From Actinoallomurus bryophytorum (GTDB taxonomy: Bacteria; Actinomycetota; Actinomycetes; Streptosporangiales; Streptosporangiaceae), in contig NZ_VFOZ01000003.1 of NCBI RefSeq assembly GCF_006716425.1, positions 1 to 64,000 on the forward strand: a stretch of DNA of 64,000 nucleotides, in the 5' to 3' direction. The notes below the pieces were generated by a model. It did no database searches and had not been told where the DNA came from. It saw only the letters and a list, made by a program, of their open reading frames with translations. Within the stretch, counting starts at the first letter, position 1. Each line of letters begins with the position of its first letter. Positions 20,747-27,478 of this stretch are shown piece by piece. Made by a program: the position numbers and the translations under genes.

Positions 20747-21649
20747 TCAGGCGGCGGCGGCCGGTGTGTAGTGGTGGGCCTCGTCACCTTCGATGACGTA
20801 ACTCGTCTCTCCGCCGATGGCCGACGGAGCGTCGCCGGCCACGGTGACGCGGTGCAGGCGGCGCGGCTGGTCGCCGTAGTCGTCGGGCGCGTAGTGCTGG
20901 GTGATGCGGTTGTCGAAGACGACGAGGTCACCGGGCTTCCACGCGACGCGCAGAATGTTCTCCGGCCGGGTGACATAGGCCTGGAGGATGCGCAGGATGT
21001 CGCGCGACTCGGTGCCGCTGAGCCCGACGATCCGCTGCGCGAAACCGCCGATGAACAGGCCGCGTTCCCCCGACTCCGGGTGCACGCGCACGACCGGATG
21101 GCCGGTCTGGTAGCGCGTGGAGACGAAGACCTTCCGGTACTCCGCGGCCTTGGCCGCGTTGTTCCGCGGCAGCGCGTAGTCGTAGTCGTTGGTGTGCACC
21201 GCCCACAGCCGGTCGGCGAAGTCCCGCAGCTGCTGGGGGAGGTCGCGGTAGGCGGCCCCGGCGTTGGCGATCAGCGTGTTGCCCCCGTACGGCGGCACGA
21301 CGAGGGCCCGCAGCGTGCTGACCTTCGGCGGCGTGCGGACGAACGTCACGTCGGTGTGCCAGTTGTTGGAGCGGATGCCCTCCTCCCCGTCGACCGGGAG
21401 GATGTTGGGCTGGCCGTCCACCGAGGGCACGGTCGGATGCGCACGGGTGAGCGCGCCGAACCGGGACGCGAAGGCGATCTGCCCCTCGTCGTCGAGCCCG
21501 GCGCCACGGAAGATCAGCGCCTTGTGCTCCAGCAGCGCGGAGTTGATCGCTTCGAACAGGCCGTCGGACAGGGCGTTGAGGTCGACGCCGGAGACCTCCG
21601 CGCCGATCCGTCCGCCGATTCTGGTGAGGTCGAGACCGGACATGGTCAT
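20747..21649 (-). CDS. tauD: TauD-like 2-oxoglutarate/Fe(II)-dependent dioxygenase
   Basis: 300 residues, the usual TauD length. Iron ligands H98 and D100 in N-W-H-T-D and H252 in T-Q-H-Y-A, with R263 of Q-P-R-R as the 2-oxoglutarate anchor; the positions are nearly identical to E. coli TauD (H99, D101, H255, R266). Such enzymes oxidise taurine, alkylsulfonates or sulfate esters and release sulfite or sulfate. It is the last gene of an operon with a nitrate/sulfonate-type ABC importer, 9 bases after the permease stop. The sulfur leader peptide upstream supports a sulfur-scavenging role. The precise substrate is not predictable. Confidence 0.88.
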   Translation of the reverse strand: MTMSGLDLTRIGGRIGAEVSGVDLNALSDGLFEAINSALLEHKALIFRGAGLDDEGQIAFASRFGALTRAHPTVPSVDGQPNILPVDGEEGIRSNNWHTDVTFVRTPPKVSTLRALVVPPYGGNTLIANAGAAYRDLPQQLRDFADRLWAVHTNDYDYALPRNNAAKAAEYRKVFVSTRYQTGHPVVRVHPESGERGLFIGGFAQRIVGLSGTESRDILRILQAYVTRPENILRVAWKPGDLVVFDNRITQHYAPDDYGDQPRRLHRVTVAGDAPSAIGGETSYVIEGDEAHHYTPAAAA

Positions 21650-21658
21650 TTCCTTTCC

Positions 21659-22501
21659 TCAGGGACGAGCGGTGGGATCGGCCGCGCGAAGGACGAGCCG
21701 CAACAGCCCGTCGAAGACGAAGCCGAGAACGGCGATCACGGCGATCCCGCTGAAGATCAGTGGAGTCTGGAGGTAGTTGCCGGCCTGCAGGATGAGGAAG
21801 CCCACGCCCCCGGTCGCGGCGATCATCTCGGCGGCGACGATGCTGGTCCAGGCTCCGCCCATGGCGATGCGCATGCCGGTGATGACGCCGGGCACGGCGG
21901 CGCGGAGCCGTACGTGCAGCATCGTGTAGAGGGGCGAGGCGCCGAGGCTGCGGCTCGCGTGGAGCAGCTCGTCCGGTACGGCGTCGAGTGCGCTCAACGT
22001 CGCGACGGTGACGACCGGCAGCACGCCGAAGAAGATCAGTGCCACCTTGGACGTCTCGCCGATGCCGAACCACACGACGAGAAGCGGGATGAACGCGATC
22101 GGCGGGAGGGGCCGCATGACGCCGACGATCGGGTCGGCGAGCTCACGGATCACCCGCATGCCCGCCATCGCCGCGCCCAGCACGAGACCTGCGGCCGTCC
22201 CCAGGAGGAAGCCGGCCAGGATGCGGGCGGTGCTGATCAGCGCGTCCTGCACCAGGGTCCTGCCCTGGACCTCCGGGTACGGTTTCGTCAGGTAACGCAG
22301 GAGGTCGTGTCCCGTCTCCTGGATGGTCGGCATCGTCACCGGATCCCCGACCGCGTACGCCGCGACCTCCCACCCGGCGAGGGCCAGGGCGAGCCCGGCC
22401 GCGCCGATGAGCACCCGGCGCCAGGACCGCCGCCGCCGTGCCGCCCGGCGCCCGCCCGCGGCGGCGAGAGCGTCCGTCTCCTCTGCCAGCGTCGAGCTCA
22501 T
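21659..22501 (-). CDS. Sulfonate/taurine-type ABC transporter permease
   Basis: 280 residues, six predicted spans, SsuC/TauC family. The cytoplasmic loop carries the coupling motif (E-L-L-H-A-S-R-S-L-G-A-S-P), preceded by V-W-F-G-I-G-E-T-S-K-V. The N-terminal tail is Arg-rich (G-G-R-R-A-A-R-R-R-R-S-W-R-R). The ATG at 22501 overlaps the ATPase stop by 4 bases. Works with the ATPase and lipoprotein encoded directly upstream. Confidence 0.88.
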   Translation of the reverse strand: MSSTLAEETDALAAAGGRRAARRRRSWRRVLIGAAGLALALAGWEVAAYAVGDPVTMPTIQETGHDLLRYLTKPYPEVQGRTLVQDALISTARILAGFLLGTAAGLVLGAAMAGMRVIRELADPIVGVMRPLPPIAFIPLLVVWFGIGETSKVALIFFGVLPVVTVATLSALDAVPDELLHASRSLGASPLYTMLHVRLRAAVPGVITGMRIAMGGAWTSIVAAEMIAATGGVGFLILQAGNYLQTPLIFSGIAVIAVLGFVFDGLLRLVLRAADPTARP

Positions 22502-23289
22502 CGCTCCAGCACCTCCCGGATGCGGCGTTTGGCGGTGACGAACTCCAGCGTCTCGGTGTCGTCGTACGTGCGGGGCCGCCGAAGTTCGATGTCGATGACC
22601 GCCTTGGTCCGGCCGGGCCTGCCGGACAGCACCGACACGCGGTCGCCGAGCAGTGTGGCCTCCTCGACGTCGTGGGTGACGAAGACGATGGTGGTGCGCT
22701 GCCGCTGCCAGAGTTCGAGCAGGAAGCGCTGCATCCCGGCCCTCGTGATCGCGTCGAGCGCGCCGAACGGCTCGTCCATGAGCAGGACACGGGGATGGTT
22801 GATCAGGACACGCGCGAACGCCGCGCGGTGCCGCATCCCCCCGGACAGCTCGTGGGGGTAGGCGTCGGCGAAGTCGGTGAGCCCGACGGTCTCCAGCAGT
22901 TCGCCGGCCTCCTCGCGTACCCCGGGGGTGAGGGCACCACGGGCACGCGGGCCGTACAGCACGTTCTGCCGGGTGGTCAGCCAGGGGAAGAGCGTGGGCG
23001 TCTGGAACAGCACGCCGCGGTCCGGGCCCGGCCCCTCGACCGGGCGGCCGTCCACGAGCACCTCGCCGGAGTCGGCCGTGGTGAAACCGGCGAGAATGCT
23101 GAGCAGCGTGGACTTGCCGCATCCGGACGGGCCGACCAGGCACAGGAACTCACCCGCGGCGATGTCCAGGCTCACTCCCTCCAGCGCCGGAGTCTCGCGC
23201 CGCCGCTGCCGGAAGGTCTTGCCGACGCCGCGGAGCCGTACGGCGGCGGGCCGCTCGGTGACGGGCGGGTCCAGGGCGGTGGCGCTCAT
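22498..23289 (-). CDS. Sulfonate/taurine-type ABC transporter ATPase
   Basis: 263 residues. Walker A is G-P-S-G-C-G-K-S (about 53-60), signature L-S-G-G-M-R-H-R-A-A, Walker B V-L-L-M-D-E-P-F, and the switch His is in F-V-T-H-D-V-E-E-A. It belongs to the SsuB/TauB/NrtD group. ATGA overlaps on both sides show strict co-translation with the binding protein and the permease. Expected to energise uptake of an organosulfur compound. Confidence 0.9.
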   Translation of the reverse strand: MSATALDPPVTERPAAVRLRGVGKTFRQRRRETPALEGVSLDIAAGEFLCLVGPSGCGKSTLLSILAGFTTADSGEVLVDGRPVEGPGPDRGVLFQTPTLFPWLTTRQNVLYGPRARGALTPGVREEAGELLETVGLTDFADAYPHELSGGMRHRAAFARVLINHPRVLLMDEPFGALDAITRAGMQRFLLELWQRQRTTIVFVTHDVEEATLLGDRVSVLSGRPGRTKAVIDIELRRPRTYDDTETLEFVTAKRRIREVLER

Positions 23290-24314
23290 GAGCAGCCGCC
23301 GGGCTGCTGTGCCTTGTCCCAGAACGACGGGTCGATGTGCGCGGCGATCTGGCCGAGTGGCGGGGAGGTCTTCGCCCGGCCCTGCCCGACCAGGAAGTCG
23401 CCGGTGAGGTGGAACGTCTTGGCGAGCCTGCCCGAGGCGGCCTTGCCGTCCGCGCCCTTGAGCCAGCCGGTCTCCTCGTTCTGCGGGATGTAGGGGTAGT
23501 CCCTCGTGGCGGCGATCGCGTCGGCCGGCTTCACGCCGAGGAAGCGGCTCGCCGGCGTGACGTACTTGGCGGCCTGAGCGCCCTTGACCAGGGTCTGCGC
23601 CCGGGCGACCTGGCAGACCAGCTGCTGGACGATGGCGGGATGCCGTTTCACGTAGGACGTCTGGACCGCGAGCATGTTGACGGCCGCGTACCCCAGCTTG
23701 GCCACGTCGGCGGCGGTCGTGAGCACACGGCCACCGTGCTTCTTCAGCTCCAGCAGGTACGCCTGGCTGATGTAGACCGAGTCGATCTTGTGGGACTTCC
23801 ACGCGGCGGCCTCGGCGGCCTCGCTCGCGAAGCTGGCGATCTGCACCTTGCCGGTCAGTCCCTGCGAGGTGAGCCAGCCGCGGAGCTGGAAGTCGAGGGT
23901 GGAGCCGACGAGGACGCCGATCTTCCTCAGGTCGGCATTCGAACCGATCTTGCCGTCGACGACCAGGCCGGACTCGTCGATGCTCTCCACGAACACGGCC
24001 CGCACGTCGGTGCCGGAGGTGAACGCTCCGACGAACGGCGGGTTGCCGACGCCGGAGACCACGGGGAACGCGCCGGCGCGCAGCTGGGCCATCCCGGCGA
24101 CCCCGCTGTCGATGGGGCGGAGCCGGATCGTGGACTTGACGTGTGAGGCGAGATCCGGGTTGGCCGCCACGACGGCCTCGGGGCCGGCGACCGCGCCCTG
24201 GAAATAGCCGATCTTGAGTGTGGACGCTCCGGCGTCTGCGGATGCTCCGCAACCGGTGACTCCGGCGAGTGCCGCGAGCGCGGAGACGACGACGGGGAAG
24301 GACTTTCTGGGCAT
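23286..24314 (-). CDS. Sulfonate/taurine-type ABC transporter substrate-binding lipoprotein
   Basis: 342 residues with lipobox V-T-G-C at about 19-22. The body matches TauA/SsuA/NMT1-like binding proteins (T-L-K-I-G-Y-F-Q-G; V-G-S-T-L-D-F-Q-L; D-S-V-Y-I-S-Q-A-Y). First structural gene of the operon; AAGGAGC lies about ten bases before its ATG. A short leader peptide gene is encoded 67 bases upstream. The ligand is an organosulfur compound by context with the dioxygenase; a nitrate or riboflavin-precursor ligand is possible for this superfamily but less likely here. Confidence 0.88.
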   Translation of the reverse strand: MPRKSFPVVVSALAALAGVTGCGASADAGASTLKIGYFQGAVAGPEAVVAANPDLASHVKSTIRLRPIDSGVAGMAQLRAGAFPVVSGVGNPPFVGAFTSGTDVRAVFVESIDESGLVVDGKIGSNADLRKIGVLVGSTLDFQLRGWLTSQGLTGKVQIASFASEAAEAAAWKSHKIDSVYISQAYLLELKKHGGRVLTTAADVAKLGYAAVNMLAVQTSYVKRHPAIVQQLVCQVARAQTLVKGAQAAKYVTPASRFLGVKPADAIAATRDYPYIPQNEETGWLKGADGKAASGRLAKTFHLTGDFLVGQGRAKTSPPLGQIAAHIDPSFWDKAQQPGGCS

Positions 24315-24381
24315 GGCGAAATGCGCTCCTTGAATGGGCCACGCTGCCCTCAGGCGGGAGATGAAAGGGGGAGAAAAGGCG

Positions 24382-24459
24382 TCAGCTGCGACAGCGGGCG
24401 GCGGTGACCCGGACGAGGTCCACGTGCCGCCGGCGGGTGAGGGTGTGCCGGGCGCGCAT
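24382..24459 (-). CDS. Cysteine-containing leader peptide of the sulfonate operon (25 codons)
   Basis: On the minus strand an ATG at 24459 opens a 25-codon frame ending TGA at 24382-24384. It begins M-R-A-R-H, has the core R-R-R-H-V-D-L-V-R-V and ends A-R-C-R-S. Leader peptides of this pattern (basic start, R-x-H-V-D-L-x-R-V, Cys near the end) are known upstream of cysteine, sulfate and sulfonate genes in many actinobacteria, where slow translation at the Cys codon under sulfur limitation is thought to allow downstream expression. It lies 67 bases before the SBP gene in the same direction. Recognition is by pattern; expression is inferred. Confidence 0.8.
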   Translation of the reverse strand: MRARHTLTRRRHVDLVRVTAARCRS

Positions 24460-24497
24460 ACGAGGATGAGAACACGGAGCGGACGAGATAGTCAATC

Positions 24498-24521
24498 ATT
24501 CCTACCTAATTACTATGGAAT
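24498..24521. promoter_or_regulatory. Inverted repeat in divergent promoter, sulfonate operon / LAL regulator
   Basis: ATTCC (24498-24502) and GGAAT (24517-24521) bracket the sequence TACCTAATTACTAT, extended on both sides by near-matching TA bases. It is the most AT-rich spot in the gap and sits 39 bases upstream of the leader peptide start, so it probably covers the operon's promoter. Which protein binds it is unknown. Confidence 0.4.
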
Positions 24522-24604
24522 ACCTTGGGTGTCATCCTCGCCGAGGAGGCCATCGGGGCAGGTCAGGGCCTGTAATCGGGCCGACCGGATAAGCTGCAAG
24601 CGTT

Positions 24605-27478
24605 GTGTCTCACGGATCTCCGGCGAACGCCTCACCGTTCGCCTCGGACTCCTCGGCCGGTGCCGACCTCGCGCGGTCGTCGCGGCGTGGGTGGCGTGGC
24701 CGCGATCGTGAGTGGGATGTTCTCGCCGGGCTGCTCGAGGCGGCCGAGGACAGCCGCGGCGGCGTGCTGCTGGTCGAGGGCGAGTCGGGCATGGGCAAGA
24801 GCCAGCTGCTCGGCGATGCCGCCGACGCCGCGGCGCGCCGGGGGTTCATCCTCGCCCGCGGCGCCGCCGACGAGCCCGGCCGGCTGACGCCGCTGGCGCC
24901 GTTGCTGGCCGCGCTGGGGCAGTCGGGGCAGATGATGCGGGGCGATGGGACGCCGCCCCCGGACGCGGTCGACCAGCGGATGTGGCTGGTGGAGCGGTTG
25001 CAGGCCCGGCTGGAGGAACACGCCGCGCGCGGTCCGTTCCTCCTCACGCTGGACGATCTGCAGTGGGCCGACCCGACGACCCTGATGGCCCTGCGGTCGC
25101 TGGTGCCCGAACTCGCCTCGTACCCGCTGCTGTGGGTCCTGTCCCGTACGACCGGTGGGCTCGAGTCGGACGTGGACCGGCTGTACGGGCTGCTGGAGCG
25201 CGACGGGGCCCTGCGGATCGCGCTGGCGGCGCTCGGCGACGACGCGGTGGCCGAGATCGTCGCCGACGTGTTCGGCGTTCCCCCGGAGGCCGGGCTGCTC
25301 AGGCTGGCGGCCGGGGCAGGCGGCAACCCGTTCATGCTGGTCGAGCTGCTCCTGGGACTCCGCGACGAAGACGCGGTCGAGATCGAGGACGGCCGCGCGC
25401 ACCTGGTCTCGGAGCGTCTGCCGCAGCGGCTGCAGGAGATCGCGCGCAGCCGCCTGAGCCGGCTGTCCTCACGCACCCGCCACCTGCTCCAGGTGGCGGC
25501 CGTTCTGGGACGCTCCTTCGACGCCTCCGACCTCGCCGACATGCTCGGTGAACCCAGCAGCCAGCTGCTGCCGGCGCTGGAGGAGGCCGCGACGGCGGGA
25601 GTCGTCGTGCCCATCGGGGACCTGCTCAGCTTCCGGCACGACCTGCTGTGGCGGGCCGTGAGCGGGACGCTCACTCCCTCGGTGTGCCGGGCCCTGCACC
25701 GGCAGGCCGGGGAGATGCTGCTGAGACGCGGGGGCTCGGCCATCCCGGCCGCCGCCCACCTGATGCGCTACGCCCGGCCGGGGGACACGTGCGCCCTCGC
25801 CGGGCTCGACCAGGCGACGCACGAAGTGCTGCCGTCCTCGCCGCAGACCGCCGCCGAGCTCGCCGTGCGCGCTCTCGACCTGACCGATCCGGGGGACCCC
25901 CGCCGGTTCGACCGTACGGTGACCGCGGTGTTCGCGCTGACGACCGCGGGCCGCCTGCCGGAGGCGGCGGAGTTCGCCCGTTCCGCGCTGGGCCAGGTCG
26001 CGCTGCCGTGCGAGATGGCGCGGCTGCGCTACGAGCTGGCCTACGCCCTGCTGCTGTCCGGACGGCCGGTGCTGTCGGTGGCCGAGGCCGAGAAGGCGCT
26101 CAGCCAGGAGGACCTGTCCAGCGAGCTGCGGGGCCTGGCCCAGCAGGTGCTGTTCCGCGCGCTGTTCGCGAGCCATGACTACGGCCGTGGGGTGGAGCGG
26201 GCACGTGCGGTCGTGGCCGACGAGGAGTGCCCGAGCCAGTCCGCCCTGGTCGGGGCGCACATGCTGCTCTCCTACGCCGCGTGGGGTGAGGGGCGGGCCA
26301 CGAACGGGCTGGCGCACATCCGTGAGGCGGTCCGGATCACGGCCGGGGACCCCGCCCAGGCCAGGCGCGCGCACCCGCGAATGCTCCTGGCCACGTTCCT
26401 GACGGACATGCGGCGGTTCGAGGAGGCAGAATCCCACCTCCAGACCTCGATCGAGGAGATCAGCGCGCTCGGGCACGCCGCGTACGCCGCGAGCCCGGCG
26501 ATCTTCCGTGGCCGGCTGCGGCTCGCCGAGGGACTGCTCGACGACGCGGAGGTCGAGGTCCTGGCCGGCATGGCCATGGCCGACGAGATGGGCATGAACG
26601 CCTTCGTGCTGATCGGCATCGCCGTGCTCACCATCGCGGCGGTACGCCGTGGCGACATCGACGCCGCCGCCGGCCAGGCGCGGGCCTATGCGGCCCGGCA
26701 CCAGGCGGGTCAGGGTGCGATGTACGGATGCGCCTGGGGGAGCTGGGCGATGGCCCTGCTCGCCGACGTTCAGGAAGGCCCGGCGAAGGCGGCCGGGCTG
26801 CTGCGGGCCGCGTACGCCGAGCCTCGCGAGCGGCGCTGGCTGCTCATGGCCGAGCCCGACGCCGCCGCCTGGATGACCCGGACCGCACTGGCCATCGCGG
26901 ACCGTTCCGCGGCCGAGGACGTGGTCGAGACGGCACGATGTCTCGCCCAGGACAATCCGGGCTTCGCCACGCTGGCCGCCGCGGCCGCGCACGCTCGCGG
27001 CATCCTCTACCGCGACGCCGCCGCGCTGGCCTCCGCCGTGGCCTCCCATGCCGGACCGTGGAGCCGTGCCTCGGCCATGGAGGACCTGGGAGTCCTGCTG
27101 GCGGACGGGGCCGATGAGGGTTCGTCGGTGGACCGTCTGGACCAGGCCCTGGAGGGCTACCAGCGGATCGGCGCGGAGCGGGACGCCGCACGCGTCCGCG
27201 CCCGCCTGCGTGAGCTGGGTATCAGGCGCCGGCACTGGACCCAGTCCGAACGCCCGCTCTCGGGATGGAGCAGCCTGACCGCCACCGAGTGCAGCGTCGC
27301 CGAACTCGTCGCGCAGGGGAAGACGAACCCGCAGGTCGCCGACCAGATGTTCATCTCGCCCCACACGGTGAAGTTCCACCTCCGTCAGGTCTTCCGCAAG
27401 CTCGGCATCGGCTCGCGGGTCGAGCTGGCACGGCTCGCCGCCGAGCACGCCCCGGAGCCCGCGCCACCCGGCACCTGA
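24605..27478 (+). CDS. LuxR-family large ATP-binding regulator (LAL/MalT type)
   Basis: 957 residues. The N-terminal AAA/STAND-type ATPase has Walker A G-E-S-G-M-G-K-S (about 59-66) and Walker B L-L-T-L-D-D-L-Q-W-A-D (about 142-152). A long helical TPR-like middle follows, and a C-terminal LuxR helix-turn-helix ends the protein (L-T-A-T-E-C-S-V-A-E-L-V-A-Q-G-K-T, I-S-P-H-T-V-K-F-H-L). LALs activate transcription upon binding an inducer and ATP and often control neighbouring catabolic or antibiotic genes. A GTG start at 24605 is supported by the domain beginning at W-R-G-R-D-R-E-W soon after; TAAGCT at 24589 may be a -10 box giving a very short leader. Target genes are not evident. Confidence 0.88.
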   Translation: MSHGSPANASPFASDSSAGADLARSSRRGWRGRDREWDVLAGLLEAAEDSRGGVLLVEGESGMGKSQLLGDAADAAARRGFILARGAADEPGRLTPLAPLLAALGQSGQMMRGDGTPPPDAVDQRMWLVERLQARLEEHAARGPFLLTLDDLQWADPTTLMALRSLVPELASYPLLWVLSRTTGGLESDVDRLYGLLERDGALRIALAALGDDAVAEIVADVFGVPPEAGLLRLAAGAGGNPFMLVELLLGLRDEDAVEIEDGRAHLVSERLPQRLQEIARSRLSRLSSRTRHLLQVAAVLGRSFDASDLADMLGEPSSQLLPALEEAATAGVVVPIGDLLSFRHDLLWRAVSGTLTPSVCRALHRQAGEMLLRRGGSAIPAAAHLMRYARPGDTCALAGLDQATHEVLPSSPQTAAELAVRALDLTDPGDPRRFDRTVTAVFALTTAGRLPEAAEFARSALGQVALPCEMARLRYELAYALLLSGRPVLSVAEAEKALSQEDLSSELRGLAQQVLFRALFASHDYGRGVERARAVVADEECPSQSALVGAHMLLSYAAWGEGRATNGLAHIREAVRITAGDPAQARRAHPRMLLATFLTDMRRFEEAESHLQTSIEEISALGHAAYAASPAIFRGRLRLAEGLLDDAEVEVLAGMAMADEMGMNAFVLIGIAVLTIAAVRRGDIDAAAGQARAYAARHQAGQGAMYGCAWGSWAMALLADVQEGPAKAAGLLRAAYAEPRERRWLLMAEPDAAAWMTRTALAIADRSAAEDVVETARCLAQDNPGFATLAAAAAHARGILYRDAAALASAVASHAGPWSRASAMEDLGVLLADGADEGSSVDRLDQALEGYQRIGAERDAARVRARLRELGIRRRHWTQSERPLSGWSSLTATECSVAELVAQGKTNPQVADQMFISPHTVKFHLRQVFRKLGIGSRVELARLAAEHAPEPAPPGT

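Follow-up and report, generated by a model that had tools for sequence, protein, structure and literature searches.

A conserved single-cysteine leader peptide with a near-invariant UGU codon precedes an organosulfur importer and dioxygenase operon in Actinoallomurus bryophytorum

The described systems closest to the one reported here include the mycobacterial polycysteine leaders Ms5788A and Ms4527A, which are leaderless short open reading frames (ORFs) that, like ours, have Cys near their ends and lie upstream of sulfur genes; the part of the source available to us also reports 70S ribosome occupancy for a mycobacterial Cys-leader ORF (PMC4633059). In the available portions of two further papers, Canestrari et al. 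(2020) are cited for Cys-leader ORFs that attenuate by cysteine (PMC9031893; PMC13236596). The mycobacterial polycysteine attenuators carry a run of Cys codons and are described as masking a Shine-Dalgarno site, whereas the leader described here has a single Cys and no conserved masking is predicted for its set. The candidate cys leaders of Seliverstov et al. (2005), from mycobacteria, P. acnes, and B. longum, are likewise short Cys ORFs upstream of cys genes, without a terminator, but have runs of Cys codons where the present leader has one; in the excerpted text Rho is suggested for the mycobacterial cases, a suggestion its authors call weak, and neither UGU nor UGC is mentioned (PMC1262725). 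The Rhodobacterales uORFC-8-2, upstream of cysS, also uses Cys codons in an upstream ORF as an attenuator but, as far as the accessible text describes it, has two tandem Cys codons with UGC dominant and an intrinsic terminator, unlike our leader (PMC8632094). The NCBIfam entry NF042934 (“putative leader peptide”, cis_reg_atten) has in common with our leader both the sequence core and the register of the Cys; it is a protein model, silent on the Cys codon.

The window, i.e. the whole 64,000-nucleotide stretch of A. bryophytorum DNA that was analyzed, contains a minus-strand frame that translates as MRARHTLTRRRHVDLVRVTAARCRS* (25 residues plus stop; Table 1). Its core is R-R-H-V-D-L-V-R-V, its sole Cys is third from the end, and its stop is followed after 67 nt by the ATG (24314) of a gene for a substrate-binding protein (SBP). 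An initial annotation of this DNA had pointed to a frame of the form R-x-H-V-D-L-x-R-V with a near-terminal Cys, 67 bases before the SBP gene, and both the translation and the coordinates bear this out. The peptide scores 28.5 bits against NF042934, above the curated cut-off of 27, and when all six frames of the 9.47 Mb genome were searched, the site came up at E = 9.2e-5 (26.4 bits for the match alone, 27 bits once neighbours in frame are counted); the same search of 14 control genomes gave matches at E ≤ 10 in 10 of them and over the cut-off in none. Scores for Ms5788A (NF042933, 17.5 bits) and Ms4527A (NF042936, 18.4 bits) lie below the cut-off of 45. The leader also fits the placement that we take to be typical of NF042934, directly upstream of a same-strand, sulfur-related operon, a property outside the model itself: the SBP gene follows on the same strand, and the operon is recognized as sulfur-related by its Pfam, NCBIfam, and PDB relatives. 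With its family score, the conservation set out below, and relatives before sulfur genes in its own genome, the proposal of an actinobacterial-type Cys leader holds; judged from its sequence, the leader is a real, conserved Cys leader of the already known NF042934 family.

Table 1. Positions of the leader, its control region, and the downstream operon within the window
Feature	Position	Strand	Basis
Dyad ATTCC-N14-GGAAT, right half GGTAGGAAT adjoining the -35; candidate site	24498..24521	-	Sole such dyad in the window
-35-like hexamer TTGACT, 36 nt before the ATG	24490..24495	-	Spacing conserved in SBP orthologues
-10-like TCTCAT with TGT before it, ending 6 nt from the ATG	24466..24471	-	GTGTTTnnATC-like block, by eye, same-genus sequences
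Leader-peptide ORF, probably leaderless	24382..24459	-	Translation; NF042934 score; SBP-orthologue conservation
Register Cys codon TGT (mRNA UGU), V+10 of the core, proposed pause site	24391..24393	-	Codon constancy in orthologues and family
67-nt spacer, rich in C and poor in G just after the stop, with Shine-Dalgarno GGAG further on	24315..24381	-	C 0.40, G 0.22
Substrate-binding protein, lipoprotein-like, NMT1_2 / TauA-SsuA relative	23286..24314	-	PF13379 2e-8; PDB 6ssy taurine-binding protein 1e-10
ABC transporter ATPase	22498..23289	-	Nearest NCBIfam models (SaoA, nitrate, and taurine ATPases), none reaching its cut-off
ABC transporter permease, TauC/SsuC-like	21659..22501	-	NF007545 TauC 169.5 bits, cut-off 342
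Alpha-ketoglutarate dioxygenase, TauD/AtsK family	20747..21649	-	PF02668 1e-64

The products of the operon resemble those of tauABCD and fall short of its equivalog cut-offs (TauD 228 of 313 bits, TauC 169.5 of 342, TauA 53 of 304). The SBP, a distant relative of taurine-binding proteins in the PDB, scores below the cut-offs of TIGR01729 and TIGR01728. In the PDB alignment the dioxygenase retains the HxD and the region of the distal His, and its PDB matches are the alkylsulfatase AtsK (1oih, 8e-90), the Rv3406 sulfate-ester dioxygenase (2e-77), and TauD (1gqw, 1e-53). Because the dioxygenase is closest to AtsK, with TauD further off, “organosulfur importer and dioxygenase” is a safer name than “sulfonate operon”: the importer/dioxygenase sulfur-acquisition operon of the initial annotation stands, its sulfonate label is less secure, and these relationships make sulfate esters a possible substrate in place of sulfonates. 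With this locus, the actinobacterial Cys-leader group gains a sulfur-scavenging operon.

Conservation was followed through the SBP, for which a protein search matched 20 of the 297 genomes of the host's family; 16 loci at no less than 64% identity, our own genome included, were counted as orthologues. Of these 16, 15 are preceded by a leader-like peptide, within which synonymous changes occur; the exception (L032) retains the promoter but no longer has the leader. For four SBP relatives at 36–39% identity, the 500 nt upstream showed no leader, and in three of the four the SBP gene comes after a dioxygenase gene. Met1, Arg2, Leu7, Arg9, Arg11, His12, Val13, Asp14, Val18, and Cys23 are invariant in the 15 leaders, and six of these ten residues are encoded by more than one codon, with the Cys always TGT; Arg17 is kept in 14 of the 15, and the residues after the Cys vary. 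Absence of the HVDL core from orthologous leaders, which the initial annotation gave as grounds for refutation, was not observed. MR[AV] and R[RQ]RHVD were required by the extraction pattern, which makes the residues they cover invariant by construction; Leu7, Arg9, Val18, and Cys23 are invariant without any search pattern requiring them and are fair evidence of conservation. Looser searches (VD followed by L, F, Y, or A; promoter spacing alone) jointly recover the same 15 leaders.

Named genomes, searched separately, yielded 18 loci; 16 of them have the leader and two lack it (L276 of Actinomadura fibrosa and L288 of A. flavalba), and all four operon genes were found by tblastn in 17 of these 18 relatives. 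Since 10 of the 18 named loci appear to repeat genomes of the first search, the distinct SBP-orthologue operons number about 24, of which about 22 have the leader. The two Actinomadura operons (L288 apparently being the same as L032) keep the GTAGGAATAGTTG promoter element and are therefore natural leader-loss operons; that the leader has been lost with the promoter kept in two of about 24 operons indicates that it is not indispensable. In Thermomonospora echinospora (L027, L277) the core has decayed to HVDHGHV, while the Cys is still TGT and the promoter spacing is intact. When six other SBP-orthologue leaders were scanned against NCBIfam, four passed NF042934, one from the same genus scored 24.9, and L027 had no NCBIfam match.

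Beyond this operon, the genome of A. bryophytorum holds seven relatives of the leader, five over the NF042934 cut-off and two under it, as counted among the best 8 of 19 own-genome matches at E ≤ 10 (L001–L008; the 11 weak ones were dropped). The genes that follow these paralogues encode an SBP_bac_5 protein, an ABC permease, a HEAT-repeat protein, and a winged-helix regulator, and, as sulfur genes, DUF4395 with a rhodanese, a cysteine dioxygenase, and a nitrite/sulfite reductase. NF042934 is found in 58 of 61 genomes of the host's family (E 0.001), in 131 of 197 genomes of the class (1e-4), and in 12 of 198 genomes of a phylum sample (1e-4), all 12 from the same class.

The codon of the near-terminal Cys is more uniform than the peptide model could reveal. 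We define the register Cys as the Cys ten codons after the Val (in some leaders Ile or Met) of HVD/AVD, i.e. V+10, and it is almost always encoded by the rarer of the two Cys codons. TGT stands there in 15 of 15 SBP-orthologue leaders and, against two cases of TGC, in 166 of 168 family leaders (HVDLxRx5C); both exceptions (L001 and L008) are in our own genome and have a QASALC end. For comparison, Cys in coding-like ORFs is TGC 110 times and TGT 12 times in the window, and TGC 706 times and TGT 77 times in flanking coding-like ORFs. Leaders collected later are all TGT (11 from the phylum search, 13 from SBP orthologues, and 7 from named genomes), bringing the total to 197 of 199. Counted by eye, 22 families of the class are represented among the 168 leaders and L236.

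The 168 leaders (8 from our own genome, and 60 plus 100 from the family and class searches) are all distinct in sequence and were taken nearly all in score order, so that weak members are under-sampled. The family search was made on translated sequence, which should not favour either synonymous Cys codon, and the reading pattern required a Cys at V+10, not its codon. Seventeen of the 168 loci lay off the first pattern; 13 of them were read at the match site and L008, L042, L057, and L175 separately, and all are included in the 166:2 count. In L081, which has two leader-like peptides, the more central one was counted, and both have TGT.

Since the sequences are related, the real control for the bias is the contrast within the same leaders. 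Their other Cys codons (TGC:TGT) are 84:5 at V+3, 43:8 at V+8, 6:1 at V+9, and 42:20 after the register, TGT being raised, less strongly, at the late positions too (8 of 51 at V+8 and 20 of 62 after the register). For this contrast the Fisher p is 1.6e-69, which for related sequences is no true probability. GC3 at V+10 is 0.01 compared with 0.71–0.99 in all other columns from V-8 to V+14 (151 leaders), and in the orthologues with a second Cys (L285 and L290) the extra Cys is TGC and the register Cys TGT. In the family leaders the base after the register codon is C, T, A, or G depending on the leader, and these differences mean that context does not explain TGT. Across 22 families one wobble base is thus nearly fixed at one register, whereas at two and seven codons upstream of it Cys is mostly encoded by the commoner codon. 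TGT at V+10 provides a DNA-level mark for annotating such leaders, and the near-invariant UGU is a sharp, testable property of the family and the part for specialists to follow.

The tRNA complement bears on how this codon is read. All 67 tRNA places found in the genome with RF00005 were read with ARAGORN; two are tRNA-Cys, both with anticodon GCA, and none has ACA. The second tRNA-Cys(GCA) gene lies in an array of ten packed tRNA genes, many of them low-scoring (L257, G000:C1:2656592-2657560), which looks like a mobile-element tRNA array. UGU is read by the GCA anticodon through G-U wobble. The CUA codons of the leu leader are also a case of biased synonymous choice at regulatory codons, but one explained by isoacceptors: the available part of that work accounts for codon choice in attenuators by selective charging of isoacceptors, and judges the older idea of rare codons in leaders, e.g. 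of the leu operon, an oversimplification (PMC1183508). Our leader differs in that Cys has a single tRNA anticodon, for which selective isoacceptor charging should give no preference for UGU. A UGU preference in such leaders was not met in the literature searched, which did not extend to Canestrari et al. (2020) itself. Because the isoacceptor theory offers no preference for a one-anticodon amino acid, the NF042934 family offers a clean natural experiment for asking if a regulatory pause of the ribosome is set by wobble decoding.

On its simplest reading, UGU would be a slow codon that marks where the ribosome waits, with the other Cys codons mostly fast; it would fix the pause site of a peptide-assisted stall, and, by analogy with arrest peptides, the conserved peptide residues may explain how one codon suffices. 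A broader version, in which the family senses sulfur class-wide through one near-invariant, wobble-read UGU and so through the decoding quality of tRNA-Cys, codon-specifically and with the help of an arrest peptide, we regard as unlikely as a whole. In that version a single tRNA-Cys anticodon serves both UGU and UGC, so isoacceptor charging would not be the signal. Within it, low charging would possibly be amplified by wobble, and perhaps also by loss of a sulfur-containing modification beside the anticodon. The candidate for such a modification next to the anticodon is of the ms2i6A37 type.

The region upstream of the leader suggests how it is translated. In 11 of the 15 leader-bearing orthologues a strict TTGAC starts 35–37 nt ahead of the ATG, the other four having TTGC or TTGA there, and no Shine-Dalgarno site was seen between the -10-like hexamer and the leader ATG. 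This spacing and the missing Shine-Dalgarno site together correspond to a leaderless transcript layout, and translation of the leader is probably leaderless. A strict sigma-70 scan reported no promoter, the -10-like hexamer being without an A in second position. Across the whole NF042934 family the strict TTGAC spacing occurs in 25 of 168 leaders, and a lenient version in 68 compared with 18 at a control offset; a leaderless start appears well supported in the SBP set only.

We consider it likely that this probably leaderless, single-Cys leader of the NF042934 family couples the organosulfur importer and dioxygenase operon to cysteine supply. Transcription would begin at the leader AUG, and every transcript would be translated from its 5′ end. 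With ample Cys-tRNA, the ribosome would read through the single UGU, terminate, and depart; the naked C-rich spacer would then permit shut-off, perhaps by Rho-type early termination or by lost coupling to the SBP start. Under cysteine shortage, the ribosome would pause with UGU in its A site; the conserved R, HVD, and R would then lie in the exit tunnel, some 6 to 13 residues behind, and help to hold it. Two codons from the stop, the paused ribosome would cover the start of the spacer, and the operon would be expressed. The wobble-read and presumably slower UGU would be kept at the register so that the pause falls at one place, other Cys codons being mostly UGC.

Three other accounts of the frame or its codon were weighed. 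A frame of 25 codons in GC-rich DNA is short enough to raise the question of a chance ORF, but the family score, the conservation in 15 of 16 orthologues, the promoter spacing, and the codon pattern are all against this; contradicted by conservation, it was rejected and deserves practically no credence. A function for the peptide as a small protein in trans would agree with amino acids conserved through varying codons, yet the frame precedes the operon in about 22 of about 24 SBP orthologues, its residues after the Cys vary, and its paralogues precede different genes, which makes a trans-acting product highly improbable. The near-total invariance of a single wobble base is unusual for a kinetic preference and could instead reflect a reason at the RNA or DNA level for keeping UGU, such as base pairing or a protein site, and not its decoding speed. 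The bases flanking the register codon vary, however; the duplex energy of the UGU region with the downstream 120 nt is -14.97 compared with -14.70 for shuffled sequences (167 leaders, p 0.45, shuffles preserving base composition only); and in 84 folded leaders the pairing probability of the third base is 0.62 compared with 0.61 overall, the middle G reaching 0.82. Pairing of the UGU region with the spacer accordingly shows no excess over shuffled sequences, and we think such a reason improbable.

For the step downstream of the pause, the region was examined for structure. No terminator-like site was found in 24200–24620, which speaks against an intrinsic terminator, and no Rfam match to E 1 in 24000–24800, which speaks against a known RNA family. 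The RNA of leader plus spacer folds worse than shuffled versions of it (z +1.65): 197 of 200 shuffles matched or bettered its fold. The initial annotation had suggested folding 24315–24384 in search of alternative hairpins, and these results gave them no support: with no terminator-like site, folding below that of shuffles, and predicted Shine-Dalgarno masking not above that of shuffled sequence over 15 orthologues, the features of a classical transcription attenuator (intrinsic terminator, alternative hairpins) are not found in the leader region. Spacers range from 60 to 262 nt across the orthologues, and their sequence is not conserved. Over the 60 nt after the leader stop, C minus G averages 0.153 in 168 leaders compared with 0.026 at 30 control gene starts, all of these within this window; as an indicator of Rho loading, such an excess of C over G is weak. 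We lean, weakly, toward a Rho-type step rather than translational attenuation. The description of the mycobacterial leaders as translational, not Rho, attenuators, in the portions of two papers at hand, counts against a Rho step (PMC13236596; PMC9031893).

The alternative that keeps Cys sensing and makes this step translational holds that the end of the leader or the spacer masks the SBP Shine-Dalgarno site, and that a ribosome paused at UGU opens it. In its favour, translational attenuation is cited for M. smegmatis Cys genes (PMC13236596; PMC9031893, available in part), and such systems are generally described as Shine-Dalgarno masking (PMC13236596); the predicted opening of the site also rises when the ribosome is moved to UGU in our own leader (0.31 to 0.45), in L021 (0.13 to 0.34), and in L035 (0.00 to 0.72). 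Across the 15 orthologues, however, the predicted opening averages 0.31 for the free leader and 0.39 once the ribosome stands at UGU (p 0.14), and when the final 45 nt of the leader are included it is 0.33 compared with 0.30 for shuffles that preserve base composition only (p 0.33). These values, the weak folding, and a spacer conserved neither in length nor in sequence do not support a conserved masking structure, and we hold the translational step possible but somewhat doubtful.

Adjoining the -35-like hexamer is a dyad (Table 1) whose right half recurs with small changes in the SBP orthologues, and which is a possible transcription-factor site. A search of our own genome with this upstream element returned the present copy as its best match and three hits at no more than three mismatches, compared with four for the reversed control, so that no further copies beyond chance were found there. 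On the other side of the upstream region, a large LuxR-type regulator with an AAA domain is encoded divergently (24605–27478, plus strand) and starts 146 bp from the leader start.
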